Shown piece by piece: positions 14,089-32,184 of a DNA stretch of 32,555 nt. The notes under the pieces were generated by a model. The model was given only the letters and a program-made list of their open reading frames with translations. It was not told where the DNA came from and searched no databases. Position 1 is the first letter of the stretch. Each line of letters opens with the position of its first letter. Origin of the DNA: a virus; the IMG/VR virus record IMGVR_UViG_3300025131_005267, positions 1 through 32,555 of that record; one strand, given 5' to 3'. The position numbers were made by a program, and so were the translations under genes.

Positions 14089-15419
14089 TGAATGATAAAC
14101 CGATTTGTTTAGTTACAGCACCCGTAGCAACACGTAGTGGATATGGAGCTCATAGTAGAGATATTTGTAGGGCTTTAATAAAATTAGATAAATATGAAGT
14201 TAAGATTTTATCTGTTCGTTGGGGTAATTGTCCAATGAATGCTTTACACGAAGATGATCCTAATGATAAGATGATTATAGAAAGATTATTAGATGGACCA
14301 AATTTACCACAACAACCAGAATTACATATTCATATTGTTATACCAAATGAGTTTCAAACATTCGGTAAGTATAATATTGGTATTACTGCTGGTTTAGAAA
14401 TGACAGTTTGTCCAGCACAATGGATTGAAGGTATGAATAGAATGAATATGAACATTGTACCGTCAAATTTTGTGAAAGAAATAATGTCAAGATGTACGTT
14501 TGAAGTACAAGATGAGGCTACAAACGAAGTAAAAGGTGTGTTAAAGAATGAACAACCGATAGAAGTTTTATTTGAAGGTACAGATACAAATATTTATAAA
14601 AAAACAAAAGATTTTTCAAAAGAATTTATAGATGAAATGAAAACTGTTGATGATACTTTCAATTTTTTATATGTTGGACACTGGTTACAAGGAGATATAG
14701 GTCACGATAGAAAAGATACTGGAATGTTATTAAAAGTATTTCTTGAAACATTCAAGAACATGAAAAATAAACCCGGATTGATAATGAAAACGGGTGGAGC
14801 TGGATTTTCAGTATTAGATAGAGAAGAAATATTAAATAAAATAAACGCGATTAAAGAAACAGTTGGAGGTAAATTACCTAATATATACTTTTTACATGGT
14901 GATTTTACTGATGAAGAAATGAATGAATTATATAATCATCCTAAAGTAAAAGCTCATATTAGTTTAACACACGGTGAGGGTTTTGGTAGACCGTTACTTG
15001 AAGCTACAATATCTCAAAAACCAGTAATTGCTCCAAATTGGAGTGGACATTTAGATTTTTTACCTAAAAATTTAGCGGTATTATTAGGTGGTAGCTTACA
15101 AAATGTACAACGAGGTTCAGTTCCAGATAATATGTATATTGAAGGGTCACAATGGTTTACTGTTAATTATCAAGAGACCTCTACAGTTATGAAAGATGTG
15201 TACAAAAACTATAGAAAATATACACTTAATGCAAAAAAACTAGGTATTGGAAATAGATCAAAATTTTCATTAGATAGTATGACAAGAAAGTTAGGTAAAA
15301 TACTTGACAAATATGTACCAGAGTTTCCAAAAGAAGTAAAGTTAGAATTACCTAAACTAAAGAAAGTAAGTTCATCTGAACAACCTAAAATTAAATTACC
15401 TAAACTAAAGAAAGTATAA
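14088..15419 (+). CDS. Glycosyltransferase, GT-B fold (GT4-like), with repetitive basic tail
   Basis: A 443-residue partner of the preceding transferase. The N-terminal CLVTAPVATRSGYGAHSRD loop and C-terminal THGEGFGRPLLEATISQKPVI (E-x7-E, near residue 305) define a GT-B enzyme. A GHWLQGDIGHDRKDTG stretch lies between. The last 30 residues form a lysine- and proline-rich tail with the unit LPKLKKV repeated twice, encoded by a 23-base direct repeat. The tail might bind DNA or another polyanion, or be a disordered linker. AGGAG and the TAATG overlap support the start. Donor and acceptor are unknown. Confidence 0.85.
   Translation: MNDKPICLVTAPVATRSGYGAHSRDICRALIKLDKYEVKILSVRWGNCPMNALHEDDPNDKMIIERLLDGPNLPQQPELHIHIVIPNEFQTFGKYNIGITAGLEMTVCPAQWIEGMNRMNMNIVPSNFVKEIMSRCTFEVQDEATNEVKGVLKNEQPIEVLFEGTDTNIYKKTKDFSKEFIDEMKTVDDTFNFLYVGHWLQGDIGHDRKDTGMLLKVFLETFKNMKNKPGLIMKTGGAGFSVLDREEILNKINAIKETVGGKLPNIYFLHGDFTDEEMNELYNHPKVKAHISLTHGEGFGRPLLEATISQKPVIAPNWSGHLDFLPKNLAVLLGGSLQNVQRGSVPDNMYIEGSQWFTVNYQETSTVMKDVYKNYRKYTLNAKKLGIGNRSKFSLDSMTRKLGKILDKYVPEFPKEVKLELPKLKKVSSSEQPKIKLPKLKKV
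15346..15416. repeat. 23-base direct repeat in the glycosyltransferase 3' end
   Basis: The same 23 bases occur at 15346-15368 and 15394-15416, separated by 25 bases. They lie in frame and encode the repeated LPKLKKV peptide. This suggests a recent tandem duplication or slippage event that lengthened the protein tail. Confidence 0.9.
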
Positions 15420-15420
15420 T

Positions 15421-15861
15421 ATGGAAAGAGTAATAGTTTGTCCGAAATGTTTTGATACAGATCGATGTTTTGAAGAAATACAAGAAACATATAGTTCTTA
15501 CTTATGCTTTAATTGTGGTTATATGAGTGATTCACGTTATAAAGTTAATGATTTGAATCTTATTGAAAAACTAAAAAATTCACCAAAGCTAGTACAAGAT
15601 ACAAAACTTGAAGATAAAGAGAGAGGTATAGTTTGGTTCTTATCAGTAATTAATATGGGAGAATTAGGAATGATATTTCCGGAAGGTATACCAGACGAAT
15701 ATGTTTGGAAATATGCAAAAGTTGTTGAAATACCTGAAGAAGAACGTGCAAATTATAATAATTATGATAGAAGACTTGATGTTGAAAACGCTAAATCATT
15801 TAGTCAGTATAATTTTTTAGGAGCGTGTGAAGAGTTAGGAATAACAAAGGATTTAAAGTAA
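15421..15861 (+). CDS. Zinc-finger-like uncharacterised protein
   Basis: A 146-residue protein whose first 35 residues form a likely zinc ribbon: CPKC (residues 7-10) and CFNC (about 29-32), with another cysteine between. The rest is acidic and helical, with GIVWFLSVINMGELGMIFPEG as the most distinctive stretch. I recall similar proteins in marine T4-like phages without function. It begins one base after the previous stop. Confidence 0.65.
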   Translation: MERVIVCPKCFDTDRCFEEIQETYSSYLCFNCGYMSDSRYKVNDLNLIEKLKNSPKLVQDTKLEDKERGIVWFLSVINMGELGMIFPEGIPDEYVWKYAKVVEIPEEERANYNNYDRRLDVENAKSFSQYNFLGACEELGITKDLK

Positions 15862-15862
15862 A

Positions 15863-16327
15863 ATGCCTAAACAAGTATATACTTGGGGAAAAGTAACTGC
15901 TGGAGATATTATATCATTTAGATATAAAGGAAAAAAAACAACTGGTACATTGACTACTTTACTTGTATTAAATCCAAAAATACCATATGATAGAAAAGAT
16001 GGTACTAAAACATTTCATTTAGTCGGTTTGAAATTAGAAGAACAAGGTACTATACCGTTAGTTAGAAATAAACCACTACTTGTACAGTTGTTATCTTCAA
16101 TCGGTGAGATACAAGTAGTTGATGGTGAAAGTGGTATTTTTAGAGTAGAAATGAAGAGTGTAGGTCCACGTGGAGTTACAAAACGTGTATATAAAACTAT
16201 AAAAAGAAAATTAAAACAATTCGCCATTTACAGAACTTATGATTATAAAGAGGCTAGAAAATCACAAGTATTTTTAGAACCAATAACTTTACCTAAACTT
16301 TTAGTAGAGGCATTAATTGAAAATTAG
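15863..16327 (+). CDS. Uncharacterised basic protein
   Basis: A 154-residue lysine-rich, strand-rich protein beginning MPKQVYTWGKVTAGDIISFRYKGKK. The early VTAGDIISFRYKG segment is reminiscent of a small beta-barrel, and the second half (KRVYKTIKRKLKQFAIY) is strongly basic, so nucleic-acid binding is possible but unproven. No family recognised. It starts one base after the preceding stop and overlaps the following TTG-initiated gene by 11 bases. Confidence 0.55.
   Translation: MPKQVYTWGKVTAGDIISFRYKGKKTTGTLTTLLVLNPKIPYDRKDGTKTFHLVGLKLEEQGTIPLVRNKPLLVQLLSSIGEIQVVDGESGIFRVEMKSVGPRGVTKRVYKTIKRKLKQFAIYRTYDYKEARKSQVFLEPITLPKLLVEALIEN
16306..16310 (+). promoter_or_regulatory. Ribosome binding site deciding a TTG start
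   Basis: AGAGG lies 6 bases before the TTG at 16317, the best-placed initiator for the next gene. There is no ATG that keeps the conserved N-terminal strand KISYAITVCNE, so a TTG start is needed. Confidence 0.6.
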
Positions 16328-16928
16328 TTATGCAATAACAGTATGTAACGAAGAAGTAGAAATACAACGATTAGTTACATTTTTATTAAAACATAAAGAA
16401 TTACAAGATGAAATAGTAATTACTTATGATTCTAAGAATGGTATTAAAGATATAGAAGAATACTTGAAAAGTAACATTGGATTTAGTTGGCATCCATATG
16501 AATTTGATGGTAATTTTTCTGATTTAAAGAATCATACAAAATCAATGTGTAGTGGAGATTATATATTTCATTTAGACGCGGATGAAATACCTCATGAATT
16601 TTTGATGGAACAAGTACATACAGTTATAGAAATGAATGATGTAGATTTAATATGGACACCAAGAGTGAATACAGTTGAAGGACTTACTGATGAATGGGCG
16701 AATAAATGGGGATGGAGAATATCAGAAAAAGGTTGGGTTAATTATCCAGATTATCAAGCTAGAATTTTTAAGAATCATCCAGATATTAAATGGGTTAAAC
16801 CAGTACACGAAGTAATTTCAGGACATAAAAGTTTTGCACATTTACCACCACACGAAGAACTGTCGTTATATCACCCTAAAACTATAGATAAACAAATAAA
16901 ACAAAATCAATTATATTCTACTATATGA
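16317..16928 (+). CDS. Glycosyltransferase, GT-A fold (GT2-like)
   Basis: A 203-residue GT2-type transferase opening the sugar cassette. The N-terminus KISYAITVCNEEVEIQRLV is the nucleotide-binding strand and loop, and DYIFHLDADEIP carries the metal-binding D-x-D at residues 87-89. It continues with a WTPRVNTVEG region and a VKPVHEVISGH acceptor-side histidine motif, typical of small GT2 enzymes. It uses TTG as start, with AGAGG 6 bases upstream. It overlaps its neighbours at both ends. At about 200 residues it is a minimal GT-A domain without membrane helices. Confidence 0.82.
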   Translation: MKISYAITVCNEEVEIQRLVTFLLKHKELQDEIVITYDSKNGIKDIEEYLKSNIGFSWHPYEFDGNFSDLKNHTKSMCSGDYIFHLDADEIPHEFLMEQVHTVIEMNDVDLIWTPRVNTVEGLTDEWANKWGWRISEKGWVNYPDYQARIFKNHPDIKWVKPVHEVISGHKSFAHLPPHEELSLYHPKTIDKQIKQNQLYSTI

Positions 16929-17941
16929 TAAAAGTAAAAATACTTAATCCTATAGAAGATAGAAATGAACCAACTTTTCGTCCTTTGTTTTTTATAAAGG
17001 ATATGTTAAGAGATTATAGTATTGATATAACTGAGTCGGATGATTTTGATTTTATGTTTATAGGTATGAACGAGTTTATAGATAAAGATGTTTCGTTAGA
17101 TGAAAGTGTAGACCGTGGACTTGAAAATTTATCTAAAATAACTGGTGATTATTTTTTATTTGATGGATCTGATTCAACATCTCTTATGGGTGCGTACGAA
17201 GTTTTAAATGAAAGTAAAGCAATTTATTTATTTAAAAATCAACTATTGAATAGAGAAGAATACAAGAAATCAACAACTTTAAATAAGTGGTTTTTTGGAA
17301 CTGGTAGTGATTTAGATTTATCATATAATATTTCAGATGAAAATTGGAATAGAATAAAATTAAGTGGATGGAATTTAGGTTATATGTTACCTCAGTATAG
17401 AAATTTTCAACAGGTTTCAAGTTATAAGAATTTAGACGTTTGTGCAATTTATAAAGCAGAACTTCCATATAATGAAGAACACAAATTGAGAAATGATTTA
17501 TATTATACGAACCATAGAAAAAGTGCGTGGGATGTTTTAGATAGTAAATTTTCTTCAAAAAAAGATAAATTACCTTATCAAGAATATATTAATACATTAT
17601 ATAATTCAAAAATAGCACTTTCACCATATGGGATGGGAGAAATCTGTTTTAGAGATTTTGAATGTATGCAGTTTGGAACAATTATAGTTAAACCAGATGT
17701 GAGTAGATTAGACACAATTCCAAATATTTATGAAGATGATGAAACTTATGTTGCAGTAAATTATGATTGGTCTAATCTTAATGAAAAAGTTGATTATATA
17801 TTATCAGATTTTAATAATTTAAATCAAAAAATAAATACTAATATTAGAAAAGAGTTTTTAGAAAAATATACTTATGAAAACTTGTGTATGCATTGGTATG
17901 AAATTTTTAGTAACTTAGATAAAATTAATAAGTATGAATAA
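16925..17941 (+). CDS. Putative glycosyltransferase, GT-B-like
   Basis: A 338-residue protein whose C-terminal half carries YINTLYNSKIALSPYGMGE followed by an ICFRDFECMQFGTIIVKPD stretch. This pattern of a small-residue loop and an R-x-x-E acidic motif is seen in exostosin- and CgeB-like glycosyltransferases. A TNHRKSAWDVL segment precedes it. The N-terminal half is divergent and I cannot place it. The start overlaps the previous stop by 4 bases (ATGA). Role as a transferase rests on the C-terminal motif and on the neighbours. Confidence 0.6.
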   Translation: MIKVKILNPIEDRNEPTFRPLFFIKDMLRDYSIDITESDDFDFMFIGMNEFIDKDVSLDESVDRGLENLSKITGDYFLFDGSDSTSLMGAYEVLNESKAIYLFKNQLLNREEYKKSTTLNKWFFGTGSDLDLSYNISDENWNRIKLSGWNLGYMLPQYRNFQQVSSYKNLDVCAIYKAELPYNEEHKLRNDLYYTNHRKSAWDVLDSKFSSKKDKLPYQEYINTLYNSKIALSPYGMGEICFRDFECMQFGTIIVKPDVSRLDTIPNIYEDDETYVAVNYDWSNLNEKVDYILSDFNNLNQKINTNIRKEFLEKYTYENLCMHWYEIFSNLDKINKYE

Positions 17942-18443
17942 AAACATATTTTCAGAAGAAGTAAAAGTATTTACACCAGAAGCTTTTGAAGATTACAGAG
18001 GTGAACTTTGGACTACTTGGAAAAAAGATGAGTTTCCAATAGATTTAGAATTTAATCATGATAAGATTTCTACTTCACGTAAAAATGTTATTAGAGGTAT
18101 ACACGGAGATAATAAATCTTGGAAACTAGTTACTTGTTTATATGGCGAGTTATATTTTGTAGTTGTAGATAATAGAAAAGATTCATATACATATTTGAAA
18201 TGGGACCATATTATACTGAGTGATAAAAATAAAAAGATGGTATTAATACCACCTGGATTTGGAAATTCTTTTTGTGTTTTGAGTAACTATTCAATATTTA
18301 TGTATAAATGGAGTTATAGAGGAAAGTATCCTGATGTTAAGGATCAATTTTCATTAAAATGGAATGATAAAAGAATTGGTATTAACTGGCCAATATCTAA
18401 TCCTATACTTTCAGATAGAGATAAAAATTCAAAGGAGTTATAA
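17934..18443 (+). CDS. RmlC-like cupin (nucleotide-sugar 3,5-epimerase family)
   Basis: A 169-residue cupin of the dTDP-4-dehydrorhamnose 3,5-epimerase family, which epimerises 4-keto-6-deoxy sugar nucleotides. NVIRGIHGDNKSWKLVTCLYG holds the catalytic base His57 and Lys64. LIPPGFGNSF corresponds to the canonical PxGFAHGF, but the histidine of that motif is absent here. FMYKWSYRG has the candidate acid Tyr124, and the end KWNDKRIGINWP is diagnostic. No RmlA, RmlB or RmlD is visible here, so the keto-sugar substrate must come from the host or from genes outside the window. The missing second histidine leaves open whether it epimerises one centre or two. Confidence 0.82.
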   Translation: MNKNIFSEEVKVFTPEAFEDYRGELWTTWKKDEFPIDLEFNHDKISTSRKNVIRGIHGDNKSWKLVTCLYGELYFVVVDNRKDSYTYLKWDHIILSDKNKKMVLIPPGFGNSFCVLSNYSIFMYKWSYRGKYPDVKDQFSLKWNDKRIGINWPISNPILSDRDKNSKEL

Positions 18444-19369
18444 TGCCAGCAGACAGTAAAACAAAAACAACAATATTAAAATTAAGACGACATAAAAGAA
18501 CAAAAGAAAAAACTTGTATGGTAACTGCATATGATTACCCACAGGCATTAATTGCAGATAAGGCCGGAGTTGATGTTGTTCTAGTAGGAGATTCTTGTGG
18601 TATGACAACACATGGATACAAGACAACAATTCCTGTAACGATGGATGAAATGGTAAACCATTGTGAAGCGGTATCACGAGGAGCAAATGATGCATTTCTT
18701 GTAGGTGATATGCCATATATGTCTTATCAACCATCAGACCAAATAGCAGTAGAAAATGCTGGAAGATTTATTAAAGCGGGAATGGATTGTGCAAAAGTAG
18801 AAGGTGCTATGATAGATAGAGTTAAAGCTATTGTAGATTCTGGTATTATGGTTATGAGTCATTTAGGACTAACACCACATACTCGTGCAAAACTTGGTGG
18901 ATATAGAGTACAAGGTAAAACAGCAAAGAGTGCAGAAATTGTACTTGACCAAGCATTAAGATTACAAGATGTTGGTTGTTCTTTTCTATTGTTAGAAGCG
19001 ATGCCAACAGAACCAGCTGGTATGATAGCAGAGAAACTTGATATACCAGTTTATGGTATTGGAGCGGGAGATAGAGTTGATGGACAACTTGTGATTCTTC
19101 ACGATTTAGTTGGTTTATTTTGGGAATTTAAATCAAAATTTGTTAAAAGATATTGTGAAGCGGGTCAGATGATACAATCAGCACTTGAAGAGTATAAGTC
19201 TGAAGTAAAAGGTGGTCAGTTTCCAGCACCAGAAAACTTTTATGAGATTAAAGAAGAAGAACTTGAAAAATTACTTGGTGATTCTTCTTGGAAATATGAA
19301 ACAGATAGAGTTGAGAATTTAGCTAAACCAAAACATAGTGTAACACCTAGAACAACAAAGAGGGACTAA
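18443..19369 (+). CDS. panB: Ketopantoate hydroxymethyltransferase (PanB family)
   Basis: PanB adds a hydroxymethyl group from 5,10-methylenetetrahydrofolate to 2-ketoisovalerate, the first step of pantothenate synthesis. All key residues line up with the E. coli enzyme: metal ligands Asp50 (LVGDSCGMTTHG), Asp89 (LVGDMPYMSY) and Glu120 (AKVEGA), and the catalytic Glu185 (LLLEAMP). His140 in SHLGLTP and the GGYRVQGKT and YGIGAG loops are also present. It should therefore be active. It is 308 residues against 264 in E. coli; the extra is a charged C-terminal tail from about residue 262. It sits directly before a ThDP enzyme, sharing a TAATG junction with it. No PanC, PanD or PanE is nearby, so its true substrate may be a different keto acid or a keto-sugar. 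Confidence 0.9.
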   Translation: MPADSKTKTTILKLRRHKRTKEKTCMVTAYDYPQALIADKAGVDVVLVGDSCGMTTHGYKTTIPVTMDEMVNHCEAVSRGANDAFLVGDMPYMSYQPSDQIAVENAGRFIKAGMDCAKVEGAMIDRVKAIVDSGIMVMSHLGLTPHTRAKLGGYRVQGKTAKSAEIVLDQALRLQDVGCSFLLLEAMPTEPAGMIAEKLDIPVYGIGAGDRVDGQLVILHDLVGLFWEFKSKFVKRYCEAGQMIQSALEEYKSEVKGGQFPAPENFYEIKEEELEKLLGDSSWKYETDRVENLAKPKHSVTPRTTKRD

Positions 19370-21236: not shown

Positions 21237-23282
21237 ATGAATAAAATAAAAATAGGAACAGTTCAAGTAAATAATAGTTTTTCTGGACAAAACTATTTGC
21301 CATTATCTCTAGGGTTTTTAGTATCTTACGCCGAATTTCATTGTAAGAATTTTGAAGATTTTGAATTTTTAAACCCAATATATAAAAGAGTTCCAATAAA
21401 AGAAGTAGTTGAATTGTATAAAGATTGTGATGTAGTTGCTTTTAGTGTTTATGTGTGGAATAATAATATATCAATGAGAATAGCAAAGGCATTAAAAGAA
21501 GTTAATCCAAATATATTAACTTTGGCCGGTGGATGTCATATACCAGAAAGAACTGAATACATAGAAAAATATATGAGTGACCATCCTTACTTAGATATAG
21601 CTTCAATTGGAGAAGGTGAAAGAGTATTTACTGATTTCTTAGAAAACTATCCTACCAAGAGTTGGGATAAAGTTGAGTCATTAGTTTATAGAGACGGTGA
21701 TAAATTAATCACCACACCACAGGCAGAACGAATTAAAGATATGAACGAAATACCATCACCTTTTATTGAGGGTTATTTTGACGGTTTAGTAAAAGATAAT
21801 CCAGAAGAAAGATGGATTGGATTATGGGAAACTAATCGAGGTTGTCCGTTCGCTTGTACTTTTTGTGATTGGGGTGTTGGATTTAAAAAGAAAGTATCTA
21901 AGTATGATTTAGAAGGTAGATTATATGAGGAGATTGATTGGTTTAGTGAAAATAAGATAGAGTTTGTATTTGCTTGTGATGCTAACTTTGGTATGTATAA
22001 AGATAGAGATTTACCTATTGTTAAAAAGTTTGCTGAAAATAAGAAAAGATATGGATACCCTGAAGCATTATCAGTACAAAATACTAAAAATTCAAATAAA
22101 GTTTCATATCAAGTTCAAAAATTACTATCAGATACAGGTTTAAGTAAAGGTGCTCTAATAGCATTTCAATCACTTGATCCTAAAACATTGAAAGCGATCA
22201 AGAGAGCAAATATAAAACTTGATGTATTTTATGACTTACAGGCTAAATTCATGGAAGATGGAATAAAAACATTTTCTGATATCATTTTAGGTTTACCAGA
22301 AGAGACTTATGAAAGTTTTACATCTGGAGTTTCTAAATTGATAGGTATGGGACAACACAATAGAATTCAGTTTAATAATTTAAGTATATTACCTAATACA
22401 GAAATGGGTGATCCTGAATACTTGGAGCATTACGAGATGAAAGTAGTTGAAAACGATATTATAAATATACATGGAGCTTTAGGAGAATGGTTAGATGACA
22501 TTTATGAAACACAACAAATGGTAGTGGGAACTAAGTCAATGCCAGGAGAAGATTGGGTTAAAACTCGTGTATTTGGATATGTTGTAGCTTTTTTACATTT
22601 TAATAAGTTATTTCAAATACCTATTATATTAGCAAATACTGTTTATGGTATAAGTTATAAAGAAATATTTGATGCGTTTGTTACAGAAGAAAAAAGTAAG
22701 ACAGGAACGTTTTCTGATTTGATAAGTGATTTTTATAAACACTCACGTAATATGCAAAAAGGTGGACCAGAGTTTGTTAGTTCTAAAAAATGGTTAAATA
22801 TTTGGTGGCCACCTGACGAGTTAGCATTTATACGAGCAGTTACTGAAGGAAAGTTAGATGATTTTTACGAAGACACGAAAGAAATTTTATATAATGTATT
22901 TGATAATCACGGTATTAAAAATTACGATAGAATTATTTCAGAAGCAATATTACTTAATAAAAGTTTAATAAAATTACCGAATCAAACAAAAGATTTAAGT
23001 GTTAGATTAAATTGGAATATTTTAGATGTTTATACTGAGACATTGTTAGGAAAAGAATCTGTATTAAAAGAGGGTAAATTTACTTATTTTATTGATAGAA
23101 CAACTGAAACTTGGGATTCATGGGAAGACTGGTGTGAAAAAGTAGTCTGGTGGTCAAATAAAAAGGGTGCTTATTTATATGATTGTTTAGTTAGTAATGA
23201 CAAAAAGAAAAAAGAGTTTATAATGCCACAAGTTATAAGAATTGAAAGTGAACCGTTTGGGAATGATGCAAGATATCAATAA
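21237..23282 (+). CDS. B12-binding-type radical SAM enzyme
   Basis: A 681-residue class B (cobalamin-type) radical SAM protein. Residues 1-150 form a B12-binding-like Rossmann domain (VVAFSVYVW, LTLAGGCHIPER, IASIGEGE) without the DxHxxG motif, as in many members. The radical SAM core has the CxxxCxxC iron-sulfur motif at Cys203, Cys207 and Cys210 (RGCPFACTFCDWG) and a long C-terminal extension. Such enzymes typically methylate or cyclise unactivated carbons. In this context it could methylate a sugar or its lipid or protein carrier. It lacks a visible Shine-Dalgarno site and ends inside the next gene. Substrate is unknown. Confidence 0.82.
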   Translation: MNKIKIGTVQVNNSFSGQNYLPLSLGFLVSYAEFHCKNFEDFEFLNPIYKRVPIKEVVELYKDCDVVAFSVYVWNNNISMRIAKALKEVNPNILTLAGGCHIPERTEYIEKYMSDHPYLDIASIGEGERVFTDFLENYPTKSWDKVESLVYRDGDKLITTPQAERIKDMNEIPSPFIEGYFDGLVKDNPEERWIGLWETNRGCPFACTFCDWGVGFKKKVSKYDLEGRLYEEIDWFSENKIEFVFACDANFGMYKDRDLPIVKKFAENKKRYGYPEALSVQNTKNSNKVSYQVQKLLSDTGLSKGALIAFQSLDPKTLKAIKRANIKLDVFYDLQAKFMEDGIKTFSDIILGLPEETYESFTSGVSKLIGMGQHNRIQFNNLSILPNTEMGDPEYLEHYEMKVVENDIINIHGALGEWLDDIYETQQMVVGTKSMPGEDWVKTRVFGYVVAFLHFNKLFQIPIILANTVYGISYKEIFDAFVTEEKSKTGTFSDLISDFYKHSRNMQKGGPEFVSSKKWLNIWWPPDELAFIRAVTEGKLDDFYEDTKEILYNVFDNHGIKNYDRIISEAILLNKSLIKLPNQTKDLSVRLNWNILDVYTETLLGKESVLKEGKFTYFIDRTTETWDSWEDWCEKVVWWSNKKGAYLYDCLVSNDKKKKEFIMPQVIRIESEPFGNDARYQ

Positions 23283-24210
23283 AAATGTTTTAGTAACCGG
23301 AGCTAATGGAATGGTTGCGTATCAATTGATTAGATTACTTAGAGATAGAAATTGTAATTTAACTTTGACAGACCTCCATGAAAAATCAAAGTTTTTTAGT
23401 GATGAAAAATATATTTCAGGTGATTTAAGAAGTCGTAGTTTTACACAATCAATATGTAAAAATCAAGATATAGTTTTTAGTTTAGTAGGACTTAAAGCAT
23501 CTCCTGAGGAATGTTTAAAGAAACCTGCAAGTCATAGTGTAACTATGAATCAGTTTAATTCAAATATTATAGAATCTGCTTTCAAAAATGATGTTGAGTG
23601 GTTTTTGTATACAAGTTCAGTTGGTGTATATTATCCTTCAGAAGTTCTTGTTGAAGATGATGTTTGGAAAACAACACCATCTCATAATGATTGGTATGGT
23701 GGTTGGGCTAAAAGAATGGGAGAACTTAACGTTGAAGCTTCTATGATAGAATATAGTAGAAGTAATTGTTCTATAGTAAGACCTGCAAATATTTATGGGA
23801 AGTGGGATGTTTTTAGTGAGAAGGCTACAGTTATTGGTTCTTTAATTAGTAAAGCATATCATAGTAATAATGATATATTGGAAGTGTGGGGTGATGGTAC
23901 ACCTATCAGAGATTTTATCTACTCTGAGGATGTTGCACGTGGTATGATTCATATGGTTGAGAACGAAGTCACGCAACCAGTAAATCTTGGTAGTGGTACT
24001 GGTGTTACTATTAAGGAAGTTGCAGAGACAATTGCAGAATATTTTGAACAAGAGATAGATTATGATATTACAAAACCGATGGGTGATATGAAAAGATTGA
24101 TGAGCACTAAAAGAGCAGAGAGTTATGGATTTAAACCTGAGGTTAATTTAAAAGAGGGTATTATAAGAACAATAAAATGGTACGAGGAGAATATAAATGA
24201 GTTACAATAA
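23263..24210 (+). CDS. Extended SDR, GDP-fucose-synthase-like, with shifted YxxxK
   Basis: NAD(P)-binding nucleotide-sugar enzyme. NKNVLVTGANGMVAYQL is the Rossmann loop, LYTSSVGVYY supplies the active-site Ser/Thr strand, and VWGDGTPIRDFIYSEDVA is the extended-SDR sugar-binding motif. The C-terminus (KPMGDMKRLMSTKRA) resembles GDP-L-fucose synthase. The catalytic Tyr-Lys motif is NDWYGGWAKRMGE, with four residues between Tyr145 and Lys150 instead of three, so the pair may not be functional as usual. Start: ATG 23263 or 23266 (a TTG at 23242 is also open); alignment with the paralogue at 24197 favours 23266. It overlaps the radical SAM gene by 20 bases. Confidence 0.82.
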   Translation: MMQDINKNVLVTGANGMVAYQLIRLLRDRNCNLTLTDLHEKSKFFSDEKYISGDLRSRSFTQSICKNQDIVFSLVGLKASPEECLKKPASHSVTMNQFNSNIIESAFKNDVEWFLYTSSVGVYYPSEVLVEDDVWKTTPSHNDWYGGWAKRMGELNVEASMIEYSRSNCSIVRPANIYGKWDVFSEKATVIGSLISKAYHSNNDILEVWGDGTPIRDFIYSEDVARGMIHMVENEVTQPVNLGSGTGVTIKEVAETIAEYFEQEIDYDITKPMGDMKRLMSTKRAESYGFKPEVNLKEGIIRTIKWYEENINELQ

Positions 24211-25147
24211 TAAAAATGTTTTAGTAACAGGTGCCGCTGGAATATCAGGTCACTCTATGGTAAAAAGATTATTAGATGAGGGTAGTTATGTTAGAGCTAC
24301 AGTATATACTAAAAGAAAATTAAATTTACCAGAACATAAAAATTTAGAAATAATAAAGACAGATTTAAATTCACATAATAAATGTCTTGATATAACAAAA
24401 GATATGGATGTTGTTTTTAATTTTGTTGCATTTATCAGAGGTGCTGCAGGACAAATTGAGAATCAAGTCGATTTAGTTAGAAATAATGTTGTACCAACAA
24501 TTAATATGTTAGATGCGTGTGTGAAATCAAAAGTAGATAAGGTAGGTTTTATTGGTAGTTCTACTATGTACCCTGATGCAGATTATCCTGTAAAAGAAGA
24601 TGAAGGTTTTGTTGGAAATCCATCCTCCGCATATTTTGGTGTTGCGTGGATGAAAAGGTATGCAGAAATTGTTTGTAATCATTTTAATAATATTACTGAT
24701 ACTAAATTTTCTATAATCAGAACTACAGCGATGTATGGACCTCACGATAATTTTAATGATAGAGGACACGTTATTCCACAATTGATTATGAAAGCTGATA
24801 GTGGGATGGATCCATTTGAAATATGGGGAGACGGTACTCAAGTTAGAGATTTTACTTATGTTGATGATGTAATTGATGCACTACTTTTAGTTACAGAAAA
24901 ATCTAATGGTAGAGCATATAATGTAGCGACTGGAACACCGACAACTGTTACAGAGTTAGTAGAAACTATAACAGATATTTATGGTTATATACCAGAGTTT
25001 AAATACGATTTGACTAAACCAACAATGATATCAAAAAGAGTAGTTGATGTTAGTAAGATATATAAAGAATTAAATTGGAAAGCAAAACATACATTGAGAG
25101 AGGGTTTAGAAAAAACAATAGAGTGGTATAAGGGGAGTATTAAATGA
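24197..25147 (+). CDS. Extended SDR, GDP-fucose-synthase-like paralogue
   Basis: Paralogue of the preceding gene, 316 residues. NKNVLVTGAAGISGHSM binds the dinucleotide, FIGSSTMYPDAD has the active-site strand, and IWGDGTQVRDFTYVDDVI the sugar-binding motif. The usual YxxxK is again displaced: SSAYFGVAWMKRYAE has six residues between Tyr146 and Lys153, and the position four before the lysine is valine. The family (GDP-fucose synthase, ColC) epimerises and reduces 4-keto-6-deoxy sugars. Whether this copy is catalytic by the standard mechanism is open. GAGGAG is 6-11 bases upstream. Confidence 0.82.
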   Translation: MSYNNKNVLVTGAAGISGHSMVKRLLDEGSYVRATVYTKRKLNLPEHKNLEIIKTDLNSHNKCLDITKDMDVVFNFVAFIRGAAGQIENQVDLVRNNVVPTINMLDACVKSKVDKVGFIGSSTMYPDADYPVKEDEGFVGNPSSAYFGVAWMKRYAEIVCNHFNNITDTKFSIIRTTAMYGPHDNFNDRGHVIPQLIMKADSGMDPFEIWGDGTQVRDFTYVDDVIDALLLVTEKSNGRAYNVATGTPTTVTELVETITDIYGYIPEFKYDLTKPTMISKRVVDVSKIYKELNWKAKHTLREGLEKTIEWYKGSIK

Positions 25148-26133
25148 AGTTAGCCGTGATGGTTGGTGGTTCTGTAAGTCCAGATTTTAAATCCTTTTAT
25201 ATTAAAGATAAGGAAATATATCTTATTAAAGAAGACACTAAGCATGTAGTTTATAATCCTATTTTTAATTACTGTTACTTTTGGGAAGACGGTTGTTTTT
25301 TAAATTTAGCTGAATGGGAAAATGAATTACCTGATTTAGATTTAGATGTTATAGTTTATGCAAATGAACGTGGAGGTTTAAGTGATTCTCTTTGGGATAA
25401 ATATAGTGTAGAACGTTTAAAAAATAAATATCCAAATGCAAAAGTTATAGGTTTTATAAAAGAGTTAACAGTACCACCACATTATTATAAAAATTGGATT
25501 AGATTTTTGAATGAATGCGATTATATAGTTGCTCCAGCAACCGCTAATATGCAAAAGTTACCAATATATACAGAAATACAATCAGAATTAAATAAAAAAA
25601 TTAACTTTTTTTCTACACCTCATGATATAGAAACTGTTTATGATAAATTTTATTCTAATGTAAAGAATAATACTATTTTTGCATATTTACCAAATCCGAT
25701 ACATAGAAGAGGTAGAACATTAGAATTTGCAGAATACATTGGGAAAAAGTATGACATTTCTGTAATAAAAAAACCTTTTACAAATGGTTCTAATGATGCT
25801 GTACATATGAGTTGGGAAGATTTTACTAATCTTTGGTCACCATGTTTATGGCATTTTAATTTAGACCCATCAAATTTACAACAAGGTCAACACGTGGTTG
25901 CTGTGGCTAATGTTGGATCAATAAATTTTGGTGGTATGAATGAATCTCATAGTGTTTTATTTCCAGAAACTGCTACTTGTGATGAATCTATACTAGAAGA
26001 AAAATTTGTTGAATATTTAGAGAGTCCTGAAAAAAGATTTGAAGTTATTACATATGCTTGGAATAAACTTAATGAACTGTATGGGATTGAAGTAGTTAAA
26101 AAACAATTATTGAATATGTTGGAGAACGAATGA
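25144..26133 (+). CDS. Putative glycosyltransferase-like protein
   Basis: A 329-residue protein without a confident family. The first half (VGGSVSPDFKSF, VIVYANERGGLSDSLWDKY) and the second half (FAYLPNPIHRRGRTLEF, ending in a helical region) give the outline of a two-domain GT-B enzyme. The end EKRFEVITYAWNKLNELYG is like the final helix pair of such transferases. The position, overlapping SDR and PLP genes by 4 bases each (ATGA), supports a role in the same pathway. No catalytic motif can be pinned down. Confidence 0.5.
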   Translation: MKLAVMVGGSVSPDFKSFYIKDKEIYLIKEDTKHVVYNPIFNYCYFWEDGCFLNLAEWENELPDLDLDVIVYANERGGLSDSLWDKYSVERLKNKYPNAKVIGFIKELTVPPHYYKNWIRFLNECDYIVAPATANMQKLPIYTEIQSELNKKINFFSTPHDIETVYDKFYSNVKNNTIFAYLPNPIHRRGRTLEFAEYIGKKYDISVIKKPFTNGSNDAVHMSWEDFTNLWSPCLWHFNLDPSNLQQGQHVVAVANVGSINFGGMNESHSVLFPETATCDESILEEKFVEYLESPEKRFEVITYAWNKLNELYGIEVVKKQLLNMLENE

Positions 26134-27311
26134 AAAAATTAAATTTACCATTGATGTCAGATAATATTGATAGAGAAGATGTAGATTGTCTTATAGATTT
26201 TTTAAAACAAGAACCAATACCTAGATTAACTAATGGTCCAAAAGTAATTGAATTTGAAGAGAAATGGTCTAAGTGGTTAGGTGTAGAACATAGTGTGTTA
26301 GTTAATTCCGGGACTGCAGCAAACGAGCTAACTATGTTAGCATTGAAATATAAGTATCCAGAAGGTGGAGAGATAATAGTACCACCACTTACTTGGATAT
26401 CAGATATTAATTCTGTTTTGTTTGCTGAATTTAATCCAGTATTTGTAGATATAAATTTTAAAAACTTATCTTTTGATTTAGATAAATTAGAAGAAGCGAT
26501 AACGGAAAAAACAAAAGCTATCTTTGTTACGCATGTGTTAGGTTTAAATGCATTATCTGAAAGACTATTGAAAATATGTGAAGATAATGATATATTATTG
26601 ATTGAAGATGTTTGTGAATCACACGGAGTAACTTACAATGATGCTAAAGTAGGTTCTATTGGATTTGCTAGTAATTTTAGTTTCTATTTCGCTCATCATA
26701 TGAGTACAATAGAAGGTGGTATAATTTCAACAAATGACGATAATTTTTATCAGTTATGTAGGTCATTAAGGTCTCATGGAATGGTTAGAGAATTTACTGA
26801 TGAAAAATTAATAGAAAAGTATGAAACTGAAAATGACGATTTAAGTAAAGATTTTATCTTTATAGGACCAGCTCATAACTTTAGAAGCACTGAAATCAAT
26901 GCTGTTTTAGGTTTATGTCAGTTGAAAAAATTAGATTCAAATAATCAAATTCGGATTGACAATTTTAAATATTTTGTAGATAATTTAAAGTCTGATAAGT
27001 TTTATACAGATTTTGAAATGGATGGACAATGTAATTATGCTTTTATTCTTATTATGAAAGATGCTGATTATGAGTTGCGACATCTTATTGAAACCATGAT
27101 GGATTATAATGGTATAGAATTTCGTAGAGGATTATCAGGTGGTGGAAATCAATTAAGACAACCATTTTTTAAATCTAAATTTGAAATATCTTATGATGAG
27201 TTTCCTAACGTTGAACATATTCATAATTTCAGTTGGTATATTGGTAACTATCCAACATTAGAGAGAGAAAAATTAGATAATTTAATAAGGTTATTAAATG
27301 AAACTAAGTGA
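26130..27311 (+). CDS. DegT-family PLP enzyme with His for Lys (ColD/RfbH-like sugar 3-dehydratase)
   Basis: A 393-residue DegT/DnrJ/EryC1 protein. VNSGTAANELTML binds phosphate, and LIEDVCESHG carries the PLP-ring aspartate. Where aminotransferases have the Schiff-base lysine, this one has FSFYFAHHMSTIEGG: the first histidine (residue 189) takes its place. This is the known signature of ColD (GDP-4-keto-6-deoxymannose 3-dehydratase, His188) and of RfbH/E1, which remove the C3 hydroxyl to make 3,6-dideoxy sugars such as colitose and abequose. HHMSTIEGG is closer to ColD, which needs no separate reductase; RfbH needs an iron-sulfur reductase, not seen here. The GDP-fucose-synthase-like SDRs upstream fit the ColC step. 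Substrate is inferred. Confidence 0.87.
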   Translation: MKKLNLPLMSDNIDREDVDCLIDFLKQEPIPRLTNGPKVIEFEEKWSKWLGVEHSVLVNSGTAANELTMLALKYKYPEGGEIIVPPLTWISDINSVLFAEFNPVFVDINFKNLSFDLDKLEEAITEKTKAIFVTHVLGLNALSERLLKICEDNDILLIEDVCESHGVTYNDAKVGSIGFASNFSFYFAHHMSTIEGGIISTNDDNFYQLCRSLRSHGMVREFTDEKLIEKYETENDDLSKDFIFIGPAHNFRSTEINAVLGLCQLKKLDSNNQIRIDNFKYFVDNLKSDKFYTDFEMDGQCNYAFILIMKDADYELRHLIETMMDYNGIEFRRGLSGGGNQLRQPFFKSKFEISYDEFPNVEHIHNFSWYIGNYPTLEREKLDNLIRLLNETK

Positions 27312-27600
27312 GTATTATAAATATTATTTAACATTACATAAACATCCAAAATGTAAGTTATTACATTTTACTGGTCAGTGGATTACAATATTATTTACTA
27401 TATTTGTATTATATAACTGGTATTGGTACTTGATCCCATTAATTCCACTTGTAGTATATCCATTTGCTTGGAGTGGTCATTTTATATTTGAAAAAAATAA
27501 ACCATTAGCGTGGAAAGGTGGTAAGATTACTTTGTTAGCAAAATTATGTGATTGGATTATGTTTAAAGATATTTTATTAGGAAGGTTGAAGATATGGTAA
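27298..27600 (+). CDS. Mpo1/DUF962-like membrane protein
   Basis: A 100-residue membrane protein of the Mpo1 (YGL010w, DUF962) family. The yeast member is an iron-dependent dioxygenase that shortens 2-hydroxy fatty acids. Conserved histidines are visible: His14 and His16 in LTLHKHPKCK, His23 in LLHFTG and His61 in AWSGHFIFEKNKP. Two hydrophobic helices span about residues 28-58, and MFKDILLGRLKIW closes the protein as in the family. It overlaps the PLP gene by 14 bases and the next SDR by 7. Acting on lipid is known for the family; the link to sugar synthesis is unknown. Confidence 0.72.
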   Translation: MKLSEYYKYYLTLHKHPKCKLLHFTGQWITILFTIFVLYNWYWYLIPLIPLVVYPFAWSGHFIFEKNKPLAWKGGKITLLAKLCDWIMFKDILLGRLKIW

Positions 27601-28532
27601 AAGTTTTAATAACCGGTGGTGCAGGTTATTTAGGTTCTACGTTAACAGAAGTTTTATTAGATAAAGGTTATAGAGTAGATGTTTTAGATAATTTAATGTA
27701 TGAACAAACATCATTGTTACATTTATGTTCACATGAAAATTTTAGATTTATGAATGTTGATGTTACAAATTTCAAGTTTTTAAAATCAATTGTATCTGCA
27801 TATGATGTAGTGATTCCGTTAGCGGCAATTGTCGGAGGTCCAGCTTGTGATAAGAATAAAGAATTAGCAACTAAGGTTAATTTTGAACAAATAAAATGTA
27901 TTGTAGATAACTTAGAAGATAATCAAAAACTAATAATGCCTAATACAAATAGTCAATATGGTAGTTCAAAAGAAGTTATTACTGAAGATAGTCCATTCAA
28001 TCCATTATCACATTACGCAGTAACTAAATGTGATGCAGAAAATTATATACTTAAAAATAAAAGTGGTGTGTGTTTAAGATTGGCAACTGTATTTGGTGCA
28101 TCTGCTAGAATGAGAACTGACTTATTAGTGAATGATTTTGTACATAAAACTATAGTAGATGGTTATTTAGTTTTATTTGAATCACACTTTAAAAGAAATT
28201 ATATACACGTTAGAGATATAGCTAATACATTCTTGTTTTGTATAGAAAACTATGATAGAATGAAAGGTGATGTTTTTAATGTAGGTTTATCTGATGCAAA
28301 CTTGAGTAAGTTAGAGTTAGCACAAACTATAAAGAAATATTTTCATAATTTAGTTATCAAAGAAGATGATTATAAAACTGATTTTGATAATAGAGATTAT
28401 ATAGTATCAAATGAAAAACTTGAGAATTTAGGGTGGAAACCTAAGTATACAATAGAAGATGGCATTATGGAATTAAAATATGCCTATGAAATGATTATTA
28501 AACATAACAACAGAAACTTTACGAATTTATAA
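27594..28532 (+). CDS. NAD-dependent epimerase/dehydratase, canonical extended SDR
   Basis: A 312-residue extended SDR. MVKVLITGGAGYLGSTL is the NAD-binding loop, MPNTNSQYGSS the Ser/Thr strand, and HYAVTKCDAEN holds a canonical Tyr141-x3-Lys145. This contrasts with the two SDRs upstream. RNYIHVRDIANTFLF completes the sugar-nucleotide binding site. It may be the 4-epimerase, reductase or dehydratase of the pathway. GGAAGG is upstream, and the start lies inside the preceding frame. Confidence 0.85.
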   Translation: MVKVLITGGAGYLGSTLTEVLLDKGYRVDVLDNLMYEQTSLLHLCSHENFRFMNVDVTNFKFLKSIVSAYDVVIPLAAIVGGPACDKNKELATKVNFEQIKCIVDNLEDNQKLIMPNTNSQYGSSKEVITEDSPFNPLSHYAVTKCDAENYILKNKSGVCLRLATVFGASARMRTDLLVNDFVHKTIVDGYLVLFESHFKRNYIHVRDIANTFLFCIENYDRMKGDVFNVGLSDANLSKLELAQTIKKYFHNLVIKEDDYKTDFDNRDYIVSNEKLENLGWKPKYTIEDGIMELKYAYEMIIKHNNRNFTNL

Positions 28533-28935: not shown

Positions 28936-29142
28936 ATGTTTAAGGAAACTAAAAGTAGGTCAGTAAAAAAATCTATTGGTTGGAGGATGTTGGCAATAAT
29001 TAATAGTTACATTATTTTAGCAATGTATATCACAGATTCACCTTTATATAATGCTATATTGATGAATGTAACGGGAGCAGTTTTGTATTATGTGTATGAA
29101 AGAGCGTGGAATAATACACATGCTGGAAGGTATATAGAATGA
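28936..29142 (+). CDS. DUF2061 small membrane protein
   Basis: A 68-residue membrane protein. SVKKSIGWRMLAIINSYIIL and LMNVTGAVLYYVYERAW match the DUF2061 pattern: a basic start, W-R, two hydrophobic helices, and a Y-x-HER/YERxW end. The family is often found near sulfate-activation or carbohydrate genes, and its function is unknown. It overlaps the kinase gene by 4 bases (ATGA). Confidence 0.75.
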   Translation: MFKETKSRSVKKSIGWRMLAIINSYIILAMYITDSPLYNAILMNVTGAVLYYVYERAWNNTHAGRYIE

Positions 29143-29903
29143 CTATATTAATAGTAGGTGATACTTGTACAGATGTTTTCATTTATGGTGAAATAAAACG
29201 ATTAAGTCCTGAAGCACCAGTACCAGTACTTAATCCAGTAAAAGAAATTTCAAATGATGGGATGGCGAAAAATGTTCTTAATAACGTGGCAGCTTTAAAA
29301 GTAGAAGCATTTTCTGTTACTAATAAAAATAGTATTAGAAAAGTTAGATATGTAGATTATAAATCTAACCAATTAGTTTTAAGAGTAGACGAACATGACT
29401 TTTGTGATAGGATTGAAAGAGATGTATTATTAGATATAAAGGATAATGTAAGTTATATGTCAATGGCAGGTAAACTTACATTTGATGCAATTATTATTTC
29501 AGATTATTGTAAAGGGTTTTTAGAAAAAGAAGATATTCAATATATCTGTGAAAATAATAAGAATGTATTTATTGATACTAAAAAAGAACTTGGTGATTGG
29601 ATAAATTCTGCCACATATATAAAAATTAATTCTTTAGAGTATGCCAAAAATAAAAACTTTTTTGAAAGTAGTAATGTTATTGACAAAACTATCATTACTA
29701 AGGGTAATGAAGGGTGTTTATTTCAAGGTAAAATTTATCCAACTGACGATGTACCTGTAAAAGATATATCAGGTGCAGGTGATACTTTTCTTGCTGGATT
29801 GACAGTAGAATATGTTAAGACGAAAGATATAATGAAGGCGATTAAGTATGCACAAGAATGTACTAAAATTGTAGTACAGAAACACGGAGTTTCTACTATA
29901 TGA
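29139..29903 (+). CDS. PfkB-family sugar kinase, HldE/RfaE N-domain-like
   Basis: A 254-residue ribokinase-family enzyme. The N-terminus ILIVGDTCTDVFIYGEIKR and then LSPEAPVPVL are the signature of the heptose-7-phosphate kinase domain of HldE. SDYCKGFL near residue 121 and the catalytic DISGAGDTFLAGL (GAGD at 212-215) are intact. It is shorter than HldE domain I (about 320 residues), and the usual GGAxNVA motif appears as DGMAKNVLNNVA, so the substrate pocket has changed. No nucleotidyltransferase domain follows. It may phosphorylate a heptose or another sugar phosphate in the same pathway. Confidence 0.85.
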   Translation: MTILIVGDTCTDVFIYGEIKRLSPEAPVPVLNPVKEISNDGMAKNVLNNVAALKVEAFSVTNKNSIRKVRYVDYKSNQLVLRVDEHDFCDRIERDVLLDIKDNVSYMSMAGKLTFDAIIISDYCKGFLEKEDIQYICENNKNVFIDTKKELGDWINSATYIKINSLEYAKNKNFFESSNVIDKTIITKGNEGCLFQGKIYPTDDVPVKDISGAGDTFLAGLTVEYVKTKDIMKAIKYAQECTKIVVQKHGVSTI

Positions 29904-31429
29904 AACTTAATAGTACATTAAAAAAATGGTTGTATAATAAGTATACAGATAATATACCAGATAAACTAAGTTTATTATTAAAAGAACAAGGTGTACCAGA
30001 TGAGTGGATCTTACCTAGTACAATAATAATTCATAGACTTTCAAATATGCCTTGGTATACACAAGATGAGTTATTACGAGATACAAAATTATCTAAAGAA
30101 GATTTAATTGAATTAAATTCTATAATTCGTAAATCTGATATACTACAAGATGTAATATTAAATGTTGGGCTTGGTAAAAAGTATTGGAATACTATAATAC
30201 CTTTATTAAATACAGGTTCTGTTGATAATGTTATAAATTATAAATACAATTTTCCATTAAGATTAGGAATTTATCCAGGGATATCTTGTATGTTTTATTG
30301 TGGGTTCTGTGGTAGAAATCAACAAGCAAGATATAGAAGTGATATTCAAGGTGAAAGTTTAGAAATGTTTAAAAATATTTTTAAGGCTATGCCAACGACT
30401 TCTACTATTTCAATATCTGGTGGACTTGAACCACTAACTCATTCTAAGATAGGAAAAATAATAAGTACAGCTAAAAGTTATGGAATAAGAGTACCATTGA
30501 TTACGAACGCAAATAATTTAACTAATAAATTTGTAGAAAAACATCCAGGTTTATTAGAGTTAGATTCATTACGAGTTTCTTTATATGGTATCGATGAAGA
30601 GTCTACTTATTTAGTTACAAGAAAAAAGGGTGCATATAATTTAGTTAAAAATAATATAATAAACTTTTTGAAACTTAGAAATAAATCAAATCCTGAACTA
30701 AAAGTTGGATTAAATTATATAGTAATACCAGAAAATGTAGACCACGTTCCTAAATTGATTGATTATATTGCAGAAGTAAATAATAATGTTGATGGACTTG
30801 GTATAGATTTTATAACTATTAGAGAAGATTTTGGTAGTGTTACTGATACTATTGGTGATGACATTGAGAGAACACATGAATTAGATGGATTTTTGTCTCC
30901 AGATGATAGAAAAATTTTAATAGATACATTTAAAGAATTTAATAGAAAAAAAGAAATACAATGTCCTACTGTAAACGTTGATTTTGGTTACGCTTTAGTA
31001 CAAATAAATGAAGGTATTTTAGGAGACCAAATAAAAATGGTCAATGGAACTGATATGAGAAAATCAGCATACCCACAAGTATCAGTAGCAGTTGATAGTT
31101 ATGGTGATGTATTTCTTTACAGAGAAGCAGGATTTCTTGATAGACCTGGTAATGATAAGTTTATAATAGGTAGAATAACTAAACAAAAATCACTTGAAGA
31201 TATAATTGTAGATTTTATTAATAATAAAAAAGAGATAAAACGACACGTAAGTGACGCAAGATTTATGGATGCATTTGACCATTTAGCAACAGTTTTAATA
31301 AATCAAGCACAAGACGATAAAGATTTAGGTATACCATTTGAATTAGGTCCAGTATCTGTAAGAAGAGTTATTGATACAGAAAAAACAACACAGAAGAAAA
31401 ATGGGTTGTTTGGAACAATTCATCAATAG
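29900..31429 (+). CDS. DesII-like radical SAM enzyme (amino-deoxysugar ammonia-lyase family)
   Basis: A 509-residue radical SAM protein that resembles DesII of desosamine synthesis along its length. DesII deaminates dTDP-4-amino-4,6-dideoxyglucose to a 3-keto-4,6-dideoxy sugar. The iron-sulfur cysteines are Cys130, Cys134 and Cys137 in PGISCMFYCGFCGR. Further matching stretches are ISGGLEPLTHSKIG, LRVSLYGIDEE, IDFITIRED, VDFGYAL and GDVFLYREAGF, all in the DesII order as I recall it. Length is near DesII (about 485). Its substrate needs a 4-aminotransferase; the only PLP enzyme here lacks the lysine, so that step must be elsewhere or the substrate differs. The next gene could reduce a 3-keto product. 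Confidence 0.85.
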   Translation: MKLNSTLKKWLYNKYTDNIPDKLSLLLKEQGVPDEWILPSTIIIHRLSNMPWYTQDELLRDTKLSKEDLIELNSIIRKSDILQDVILNVGLGKKYWNTIIPLLNTGSVDNVINYKYNFPLRLGIYPGISCMFYCGFCGRNQQARYRSDIQGESLEMFKNIFKAMPTTSTISISGGLEPLTHSKIGKIISTAKSYGIRVPLITNANNLTNKFVEKHPGLLELDSLRVSLYGIDEESTYLVTRKKGAYNLVKNNIINFLKLRNKSNPELKVGLNYIVIPENVDHVPKLIDYIAEVNNNVDGLGIDFITIREDFGSVTDTIGDDIERTHELDGFLSPDDRKILIDTFKEFNRKKEIQCPTVNVDFGYALVQINEGILGDQIKMVNGTDMRKSAYPQVSVAVDSYGDVFLYREAGFLDRPGNDKFIIGRITKQKSLEDIIVDFINNKKEIKRHVSDARFMDAFDHLATVLINQAQDDKDLGIPFELGPVSVRRVIDTEKTTQKKNGLFGTIHQ

Positions 31430-31440
31430 GAGATTATAAT

Positions 31441-32184
31441 ATGGTAAAAGTTGGTTTAATAGGTTATGGAAATTGGGGTAAGTTACTTTATAAAAAAATA
31501 GATGGATTTGCAGATGTAGAATTTGTCTGTAGAAGTAAAGATACTTATCTTGATAAATTAGATAGTGTTAATTGGGTTGTGATTGCAACACCAAACGATA
31601 CTCATTATGAAATAGTTAAGAATTGTTTAAATGTTGGTAAAAATGTATTTTGTGAAAAACCACTTACACCGACACACGAACAATCGTTAGAATTATTTAA
31701 ATTAGCAAAAGAGAAAGATGTTAGATTATATGTAGATGATATTCAAAATCATAGAGAAGTAAAATGGGATTTGATGGAAAATAATTTAGTTGAACGAAAA
31801 AAGAAAGATAACTATAATCATTCTTATTATACTAATAAAGATTTACTTTATAGATTAGCATATCACGATATATACTATTTGTATCCACATATAAAGAACT
31901 CAGAAATTGAAAATATTACTCCAATAGATATTGAAAATAAAATGCATTTTAAAGTTAAGTTTAATGATATTACTATCGAGTTTGTGTATGATACGAATTA
32001 TGGATATGATAGAGTACATCATATTAATGGTACAAGTCTAATGGGTGATGGAAGTGATGACCCTTTAGGTGATATGTTAGAAAAAGTTATACTTTATCAA
32101 ATGGTTGATTTTACATACAATGAAAATATATCATTATTTGCTAATAATTTTATAGATATTGTAAATAAAAATTTATTTTCATAA
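31441..32184 (+). CDS. Short Gfo/Idh/MocA-family oxidoreductase
   Basis: A 247-residue NAD(P)-dependent sugar oxidoreductase. GLIGYGNWG (residues 5-13) binds the cofactor, and CEKPLTP has the conserved EKP (72-74) with the catalytic lysine. AYHDIYYLYPH contributes the His-Asp pair. It is shorter than most members (about 330-380), with a reduced C-terminal sheet domain. Some family members are 3-ketoreductases of deoxysugar pathways (KijD10 type), a role that would use the expected 3-keto product of the DesII-like enzyme just upstream. AGGAG lies 8 bases before the ATG. Confidence 0.82.
   Translation: MVKVGLIGYGNWGKLLYKKIDGFADVEFVCRSKDTYLDKLDSVNWVVIATPNDTHYEIVKNCLNVGKNVFCEKPLTPTHEQSLELFKLAKEKDVRLYVDDIQNHREVKWDLMENNLVERKKKDNYNHSYYTNKDLLYRLAYHDIYYLYPHIKNSEIENITPIDIENKMHFKVKFNDITIEFVYDTNYGYDRVHHINGTSLMGDGSDDPLGDMLEKVILYQMVDFTYNENISLFANNFIDIVNKNLFS

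Follow-up and report, generated by a model that had tools for sequence, protein, structure and literature searches.

A DesII-family radical SAM enzyme and its Gfo/Idh oxidoreductase neighbour in a T4-like aquatic phage

Main finding

The IMG/VR virus record IMGVR_UViG_3300025131_005267 was analysed over its whole length of 32,555 bases, referred to here as the window. It encodes a full-length relative of DesII, a radical S-adenosylmethionine (SAM) enzyme, and next to it a complete two-domain enzyme of the Gfo/Idh/MocA oxidoreductase family. We put the chances at about even that the two proteins turn a 4-amino sugar nucleotide into a 4,6-dideoxyhexose for a surface glycan. The two genes are:

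29900-31429, + strand: DesII-family radical SAM enzyme, 509 aa (TIGR04426, 346.8 bits; DesII match in the PDB; residue mapping; AlphaFold2 model)
31441-32184, + strand: Gfo/Idh/MocA oxidoreductase, 247 aa, proposed C3 ketoreductase (PF01408; alignment; AlphaFold2 model)

The DesII-family protein

An earlier note on this DNA had likened the product of 29900-31429 to DesII because of a cysteine motif and five sequence blocks. All of these are present and the blocks are in order, i.e., SGGLEPLT (residues 173-180), LRVSLYGI (224-231), IDFITIRED (302-310), VDFGYAL (360-366), and GDVFLYREAGF (402-412), and the match to DesII is far beyond chance. Each block contains invariant or near-invariant residues when 47 DesII-family proteins are aligned. 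In the NCBIfam profile search, rSAM_desII (TIGR04426) was found across residues 45-474 with an E value of 1.9e-103, and the second-best family (5.5e-15) was confined to the radical SAM core. Other radical SAM families (viperin, W-cofactor maturase, MoaA, and SPASM) scored at most 55 bits vs 347 for DesII and were rejected. Similarly, the PDB sequence search gave DesII (8hzv/8hzy) at 1.4e-72, with about 35% identity, and the next real match at 2.3e-3.

The AlphaFold2 model, built from an alignment with 47 relatives, had a pLDDT (predicted local distance difference test) of 89.5 and matched DesII 8HZV over 468 aligned residues (3-489 of the phage protein) with a Z score of 45.4 and a root mean square deviation of 2.1. 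The next structural entry was SuiB (Z 20.6). The Foldseek match to DesII had an E value of 8e-38, and the predicted fold spans the N- and C-terminal domains that are DesII's own.

Residue roles were mapped from the DesII structure paper (PMC11434129). The [4Fe-4S] ligands of the CX3CX2C motif (C130, C134, and C137) correspond to DesII C141, C145, and C148, and the SAM-binding motifs are retained, namely GGLE at 174-177 (the GGE motif), the ribose residues R225/S227/Y229, and D310 of beta-6. The catalytic acid pair is also retained, with E409 equivalent to DesII E408 and D457 to the essential D456 (of the exchanges in DesII, D456A alone is inactive); D457 was found in all full-length rows of the alignment and E409 in all but one. 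Among the DesII positions involved in cluster binding, SAM binding, and catalysis, the sole change is the conservative Y324F (F311 in the window protein). Thus, no other radical SAM subfamily gave a better match, and the catalytic residues have not been lost.

The DesII identity proposed earlier therefore holds at the level of family, by profile, fold, and active-site residues. On the other hand, the TIGR04426 score lies under the NCBI curated equivalog cut-off of 450 bits, and for this reason the protein is filed as a DesII-family relative rather than a certified DesII. By comparison, one actinobacterial DesII scored 612 bits and the other phage proteins 321-369.

The Gfo/Idh protein

The gap between the two genes is 11 bases, and the neighbour is, as had been claimed, a Gfo/Idh/MocA oxidoreductase, with the Rossmann domain PF01408 detected at an E value of 3.7e-17. 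The lysine of the EKP motif (K73) and the active-site H142 are invariant among nine relatives. The model (pLDDT 87.4) shows a fold that is complete, though short, with the Rossmann domain followed by a C-terminal alpha/beta domain. Its best structural match was the UDP-GlcNAc 3-dehydrogenase GnnA (Z 23.2), with near ties including the 3-ketoreductase KijD10 (Z 21.4); the C3-acting sugar dehydrogenases GnnA, KijD10, and WlbA are all among the nearest folds.

Relatives, pairing, and gene fusions

A single-sequence scan of IMG/VR gave no matches. An alignment-based scan recovered 28 further loci with DesII-family genes (given L numbers here), some of them near-duplicates, and one more fragment, L073, came from an additional scan based on the window's lineage. 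The PLSDB scan found Streptomyces only. The genome scan found actinobacteria only; its patterns were derived solely from DesII and the window protein, and other phyla are possible. None of the 50,697 phage records of INPHARED contained a DesII relative of either phage lineage, and a literature search on DesII or desosamine together with phages returned nothing relevant. The earlier statement that no phage had been described with this pair thus agrees with INPHARED and the literature, but the gene is no one-off, given the 28 further loci.

The tree separated the sequences into three well supported groups. The window's lineage comprises 9 rows (100/100), a second phage lineage 14 rows (100/98), and the actinobacteria 24 rows (100/100); the L050 fusion protein lies apart from all three on a long branch. 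DesII-family genes therefore occur in at least two phage lineages. The T4-type major capsid gene gp23 is present on six of the DesII-family contigs, including the 168-kb L058 of the window's lineage and two of >340 kb. The loci of the window's lineage are metagenomic contigs, mostly fragments.

A Gfo/Idh gene lies beside the DesII gene in all nine loci of the window's lineage. Both orders occur: Gfo/Idh follows DesII in the window, L002, L038, and L039 and precedes it in L040-L043. In L058 a single gene separates the two, so that eight of the nine pairs are strictly adjacent. Fusions were also found. L050:9014-11278, on a 39-kb IMG/VR contig, is a single 754-aa Gfo/Idh-DesII protein (Gfo Pfam domain at 8-110, DesII at 319-730), and the actinobacterium Solihabitans fulvus has two such fusion genes, L012:2670-5621 and L021:2165-4657. 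The Gfo portion of L050 is homologous to those of Solihabitans (E 7e-15) and also matches the window gene at 9e-8. The earlier suggestion that the Gfo/Idh protein is the functional partner of the DesII relative is supported by this conserved adjacency and by the fusions. The Solihabitans fusion genes lie in clusters with a DegT-glycosyltransferase protein.

A DAO-like flavin adenine dinucleotide (FAD) module is fused to Gfo/Idh in L038-L041, L043, and L058, and L042 has separate Gfo, DesII, and FAD genes in that order. This oxidoreductase module bears the motif NQYRxHxGYHYPRS (e.g., L038:11535-13271 and L042:11514-12548).

In the second phage lineage (L003, L005, L045, L047, and others), SDR-DegT-DesII-DegT cassettes were found (SDR, short-chain dehydrogenase/reductase), in which DegT proteins of the lysine type adjoin or surround DesII. 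For the downstream DegT protein, examined in L005, the nearest proteins are 3-aminotransferases, QdtB and DesV among them. In L007, two divergent DesII-family genes (1407-2816 and 4549-5784) flank a lysine-type DegT gene; in the first copy the catalytic Glu is gone (YHGTAY) but the Asp is retained.

Possible reaction and alternative explanations

Family and fold, the residues that bind the iron-sulfur cluster and SAM, the two catalytic acids, and the conserved pairing, all described above, form the basis of the proposed reaction. In a 4-amino-4,6-dideoxyhexose bound to a nucleotide, a 5'-deoxyadenosyl radical would abstract the C3 hydrogen and ammonia would depart from C4, leaving a 3-keto-4,6-dideoxy sugar nucleotide. 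The Gfo/Idh enzyme would then reduce C3 with NAD(P)H to give the 4,6-dideoxyhexose. Glycosyltransferases of the cluster could attach the product to the host surface glycan, possibly blocking superinfecting phages; O-antigen change against superinfection has been proposed for pelagimyophages (PMC7029224).

Across all contigs of the window's lineage, including the 168 kb of L058, no DegT aminotransferase of the lysine type was detected, and the sole DegT protein on the window contig has His for Lys. The 4-amino sugar would therefore probably be drawn from the host. Five contigs of the window's lineage encode a GDP-mannose 4,6-dehydratase (GMD) that exceeds the curated cut-off, which makes GDP-perosamine the natural candidate; no RmlB model match exceeded its cut-off. 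Several further points weigh against the proposed reaction. The window itself lacks the GMD gene and stops before the position of GMD in its relatives; C3 specificity is weakly supported because the structural matches of the Gfo/Idh model are nearly tied; the DAO-like FAD module carried by most lineage members is left unaccounted for; the TIGR04426 cut-off was missed; and eight positions are fixed in the window's lineage and replaced in both other DesII lineages. Among the eight, S171, I201, E278, and G312 lie near SAM or barrel motifs, and the alignment columns suggest that the substrate may differ. The dTDP-4-amino-4,6-dideoxyglucose named as the substrate in the earlier note is likewise unproven, considering the missing lysine-type aminotransferase on the contig, GMD instead of RmlB on related contigs, and the eight differing positions.

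With the fold and the radical step unchanged, the substrate could instead bear a hydroxyl at C4. GMD and a reductase would supply a GDP- or dTDP-6-deoxyhexose, the radical SAM enzyme would dehydrate or oxidise it to a 3-keto-4,6-dideoxy or 3-keto-6-deoxy sugar, and the Gfo/Idh enzyme would reduce this product. The presence of GMD on five contigs of a lineage without lysine-type aminotransferase, the Fcl-like SDR within the window's sugar cluster, and the changes at the four positions named above are all consistent with this. DesII has in vitro precedents for both deamination and hydroxyl-leaving outcomes; TDP-quinovose is oxidised by DesII itself and TDP-fucose is dehydrated in part (PMC11434129). 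However, the acid pair linked to deamination (DesII E408 and D456) is retained, the computed barrier for dehydration in DesII is high at 23 kcal/mol (PMC11434129), and the amino sugar may come from the host; a 4-hydroxyl substrate is thus considered rather unlikely. A bolder version, in which a phage-specific DesII clade has become an aminotransferase-free radical SAM dehydratase or oxidase of GDP-6-deoxyhexose, acting in a three-part module with Gfo/Idh and the DAO-like flavoenzyme that would be new to sugar biochemistry, is regarded as unlikely and a little more doubtful still.

Desosamine-type chemistry has also to be considered, in which dTDP-4-amino-4,6-dideoxyglucose would be converted into a 3-amino-3,4,6-trideoxy sugar with an aminotransferase encoded elsewhere in the phage or host. 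The second phage lineage retains the arrangement DegT(Lys)-DesII-DegT(Lys), with the downstream QdtB/DesV-like protein noted above, and a lysine-type DegT open reading frame is near desII in 27 of 30 actinobacterial loci. But the conserved neighbour in the window's lineage is a reductase, lysine-type DegT is missing even from the 168-kb contig, and all RmlB matches are below cut-off, which makes this explanation improbable here.

Finally, the radical SAM enzyme could act on a peptide, lipid, or other non-sugar metabolite, with Gfo/Idh an unrelated neighbour. Radical SAM enzymes diversify readily and the curated cut-off was missed; nevertheless, the full-length DesII fold with its own terminal domains, the conserved catalytic pair, the sugar-gene context, and the Gfo-DesII fusions in a phage contig and a bacterium leave little likelihood for such a role.

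Viral origin and sugar-gene neighbourhood

The window is viral and derives from a T4-like aquatic phage. Replication genes lie at 0.5-10 kb (T4-like DNA polymerase, clamp, clamp loader, and DnaB-like helicase), and the first 12 kb also encodes a ribonucleotide reductase and a Clp-like protease. The polymerase matches phrog_262 (E 1e-186) and is nearest to that of Microcystis phage Mel-JY01 (45%), followed by cyanophages and Pelagibacter phage HTVC008M. From 12.7 kb onward, glycosyltransferase and sugar genes were found:

12688-17941, + strand: glycosyltransferase genes at 12688-14088, 14088-15419, 16317-16928, and possibly 16925-17941 (PF00534 and PF00535)
17934-18443, + strand: RmlC-family sugar 3,5-epimerase, opening the sugar-gene run (PF00908, E 3.4e-43; TIGR01221, 126.7 bits, cut-off 155.8)
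23242-24210, + strand: SDR of the nucleotide-sugar epimerase family (PF01370, E 6.6e-32; phrog_540)
24197-25147, + strand: SDR, best model GDP-L-fucose synthase but far under cut-off (NF047922, 143 bits, cut-off 500)
26130-27311, + strand: DegT-fold ColD/RfbH-like dehydrase of the pyridoxal 5'-phosphate (PLP) type (closest PDB match ColD, E 5.2e-52; His column)
27594-28532, + strand: SDR of the NAD-dependent epimerase/dehydratase family, same gene run (PF01370, E 1.6e-31)
29139-29903, + strand: sugar kinase like PfkB/HldE domain I, with a 4-base overlap into the beginning of the DesII gene (TIGR02198, 127.5 bits, under the cut-off)

Because of the glycosyltransferases at 12688-17941, the DesII/Gfo pair was placed in a surface-glycan cluster. 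A PfkB/HldE-like kinase gene is also close to DesII in L002, L038, and L039. In the DegT protein of 26130-27311, His replaces the PLP lysine (SFYFAHHMSTIEGG), which rules out DesI as its identity; the protein scored 202.2 bits against NCBIfam RfbH (cut-off of 423 missed) and is predicted from its sequence to be a 3-dehydrase and not an aminotransferase. Such a dehydrase would remove the C3 hydroxyl that DesII chemistry requires, and the two enzymes are therefore unlikely to act sequentially on one sugar.

Other genes were also recorded. Positions 18443-19369 encode a phage PanB (ketopantoate hydroxymethyltransferase; 272 bits, above the curated cut-off of 208), followed at 19369 by an acetolactate-synthase-like thiamine pyrophosphate enzyme; L002 has the same pair upstream of DesII, and an annotated PanB is present in Microcystis phage MaAM05. 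Another radical SAM enzyme, the second in the window, is encoded at 21237-23282; it contains a B12-binding domain and is nearest to methylcobalamin C-methyltransferases of the KedN5 type (251 bits against a cut-off of 700). L002 carries another B12 radical SAM gene. The ribonucleotide reductase at 1980-3971 is of the adenosylcobalamin-dependent class (358.9 bits, above the cut-off of 340), so that, together with 21237-23282, the phage has two B12-linked enzyme types. An Mpo1-like (2-hydroxy fatty acid dioxygenase) membrane protein (27298-27600; PF06127, E 5.5e-21) lies amid the sugar genes and is also found in L038 and L039.

Significance

The occurrence of the DesII family in several T4-like phage lineages, paired or fused with a sugar reductase, suggests that radical chemistry of late deoxysugar steps is encoded by phages, and the DesII/Gfo pair provides testable candidates for phage rewriting of the host surface. 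The pairing with a reductase and the absent aminotransferase pose the question of whether nitrogen is stripped from a host sugar or a new leaving group is used. Moreover, comparison of the lineages supplies naturally occurring variants of a radical enzyme whose mechanism is well studied.

Comparison with known systems

DesII is known from macrolide sugar pathways. The phage protein resembles DesII of Streptomyces venezuelae (8HZV, 8HZY; TIGR04426; dTDP-4-amino-4,6-dideoxyglucose ammonia-lyase) in the three-domain fold, the CX3CX2C, GGLE, ribose, and beta-6 motifs, and E408/D456. It differs in its sequence (about 35% identity) and sub-cut-off score, in Y324F and the eight lineage-fixed changes, in lacking a 4-aminotransferase (DesI type) neighbour, and in being encoded by a phage rather than in an actinobacterial antibiotic cluster. 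KijD10 and GnnA/WlbA share with the Gfo/Idh protein the fold (Z 21-23), the EKP lysine, and the active-site His, but are only about 15-16% identical; the phage form is shorter, and the version in its relatives is fused to the DAO-like FAD module.

The combination of DesII and Gfo/Idh has a bacterial precedent, because plasmid pSGRIFU1 of Streptomyces griseofuscus contains an aminotransferase, desII, and Gfo/Idh inside 7 kb of one macrolide cluster, which presumably makes lankamycin. There, however, the aminotransferase is directly upstream of desII, polyketide synthase genes are present, and Gfo/Idh is non-adjacent, 2.4 kb downstream. Clusters with these three genes can make D-chalcose, a component of lankamycin and chalcomycin. 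Chalcose is a 4,6-dideoxy sugar (PMC3869251).

The second lineage likewise consists of phages with a DesII-family gene, and several of the contigs also have T4-type gp23. Its DesII neighbours, however, are lysine-type aminotransferases in place of a reductase, and it forms a separate clade (100/98). The lipopolysaccharide cassettes of pelagimyophages and cyanophages, for which no DesII member is named (PMC7029224), also belong to T4-like aquatic phages and lie in a hypervariable region with glycosyltransferases, rfaE, and radical SAM genes (PMC7029224); a ColD-like dehydrase, as in the window, is known from Synechococcus phages.

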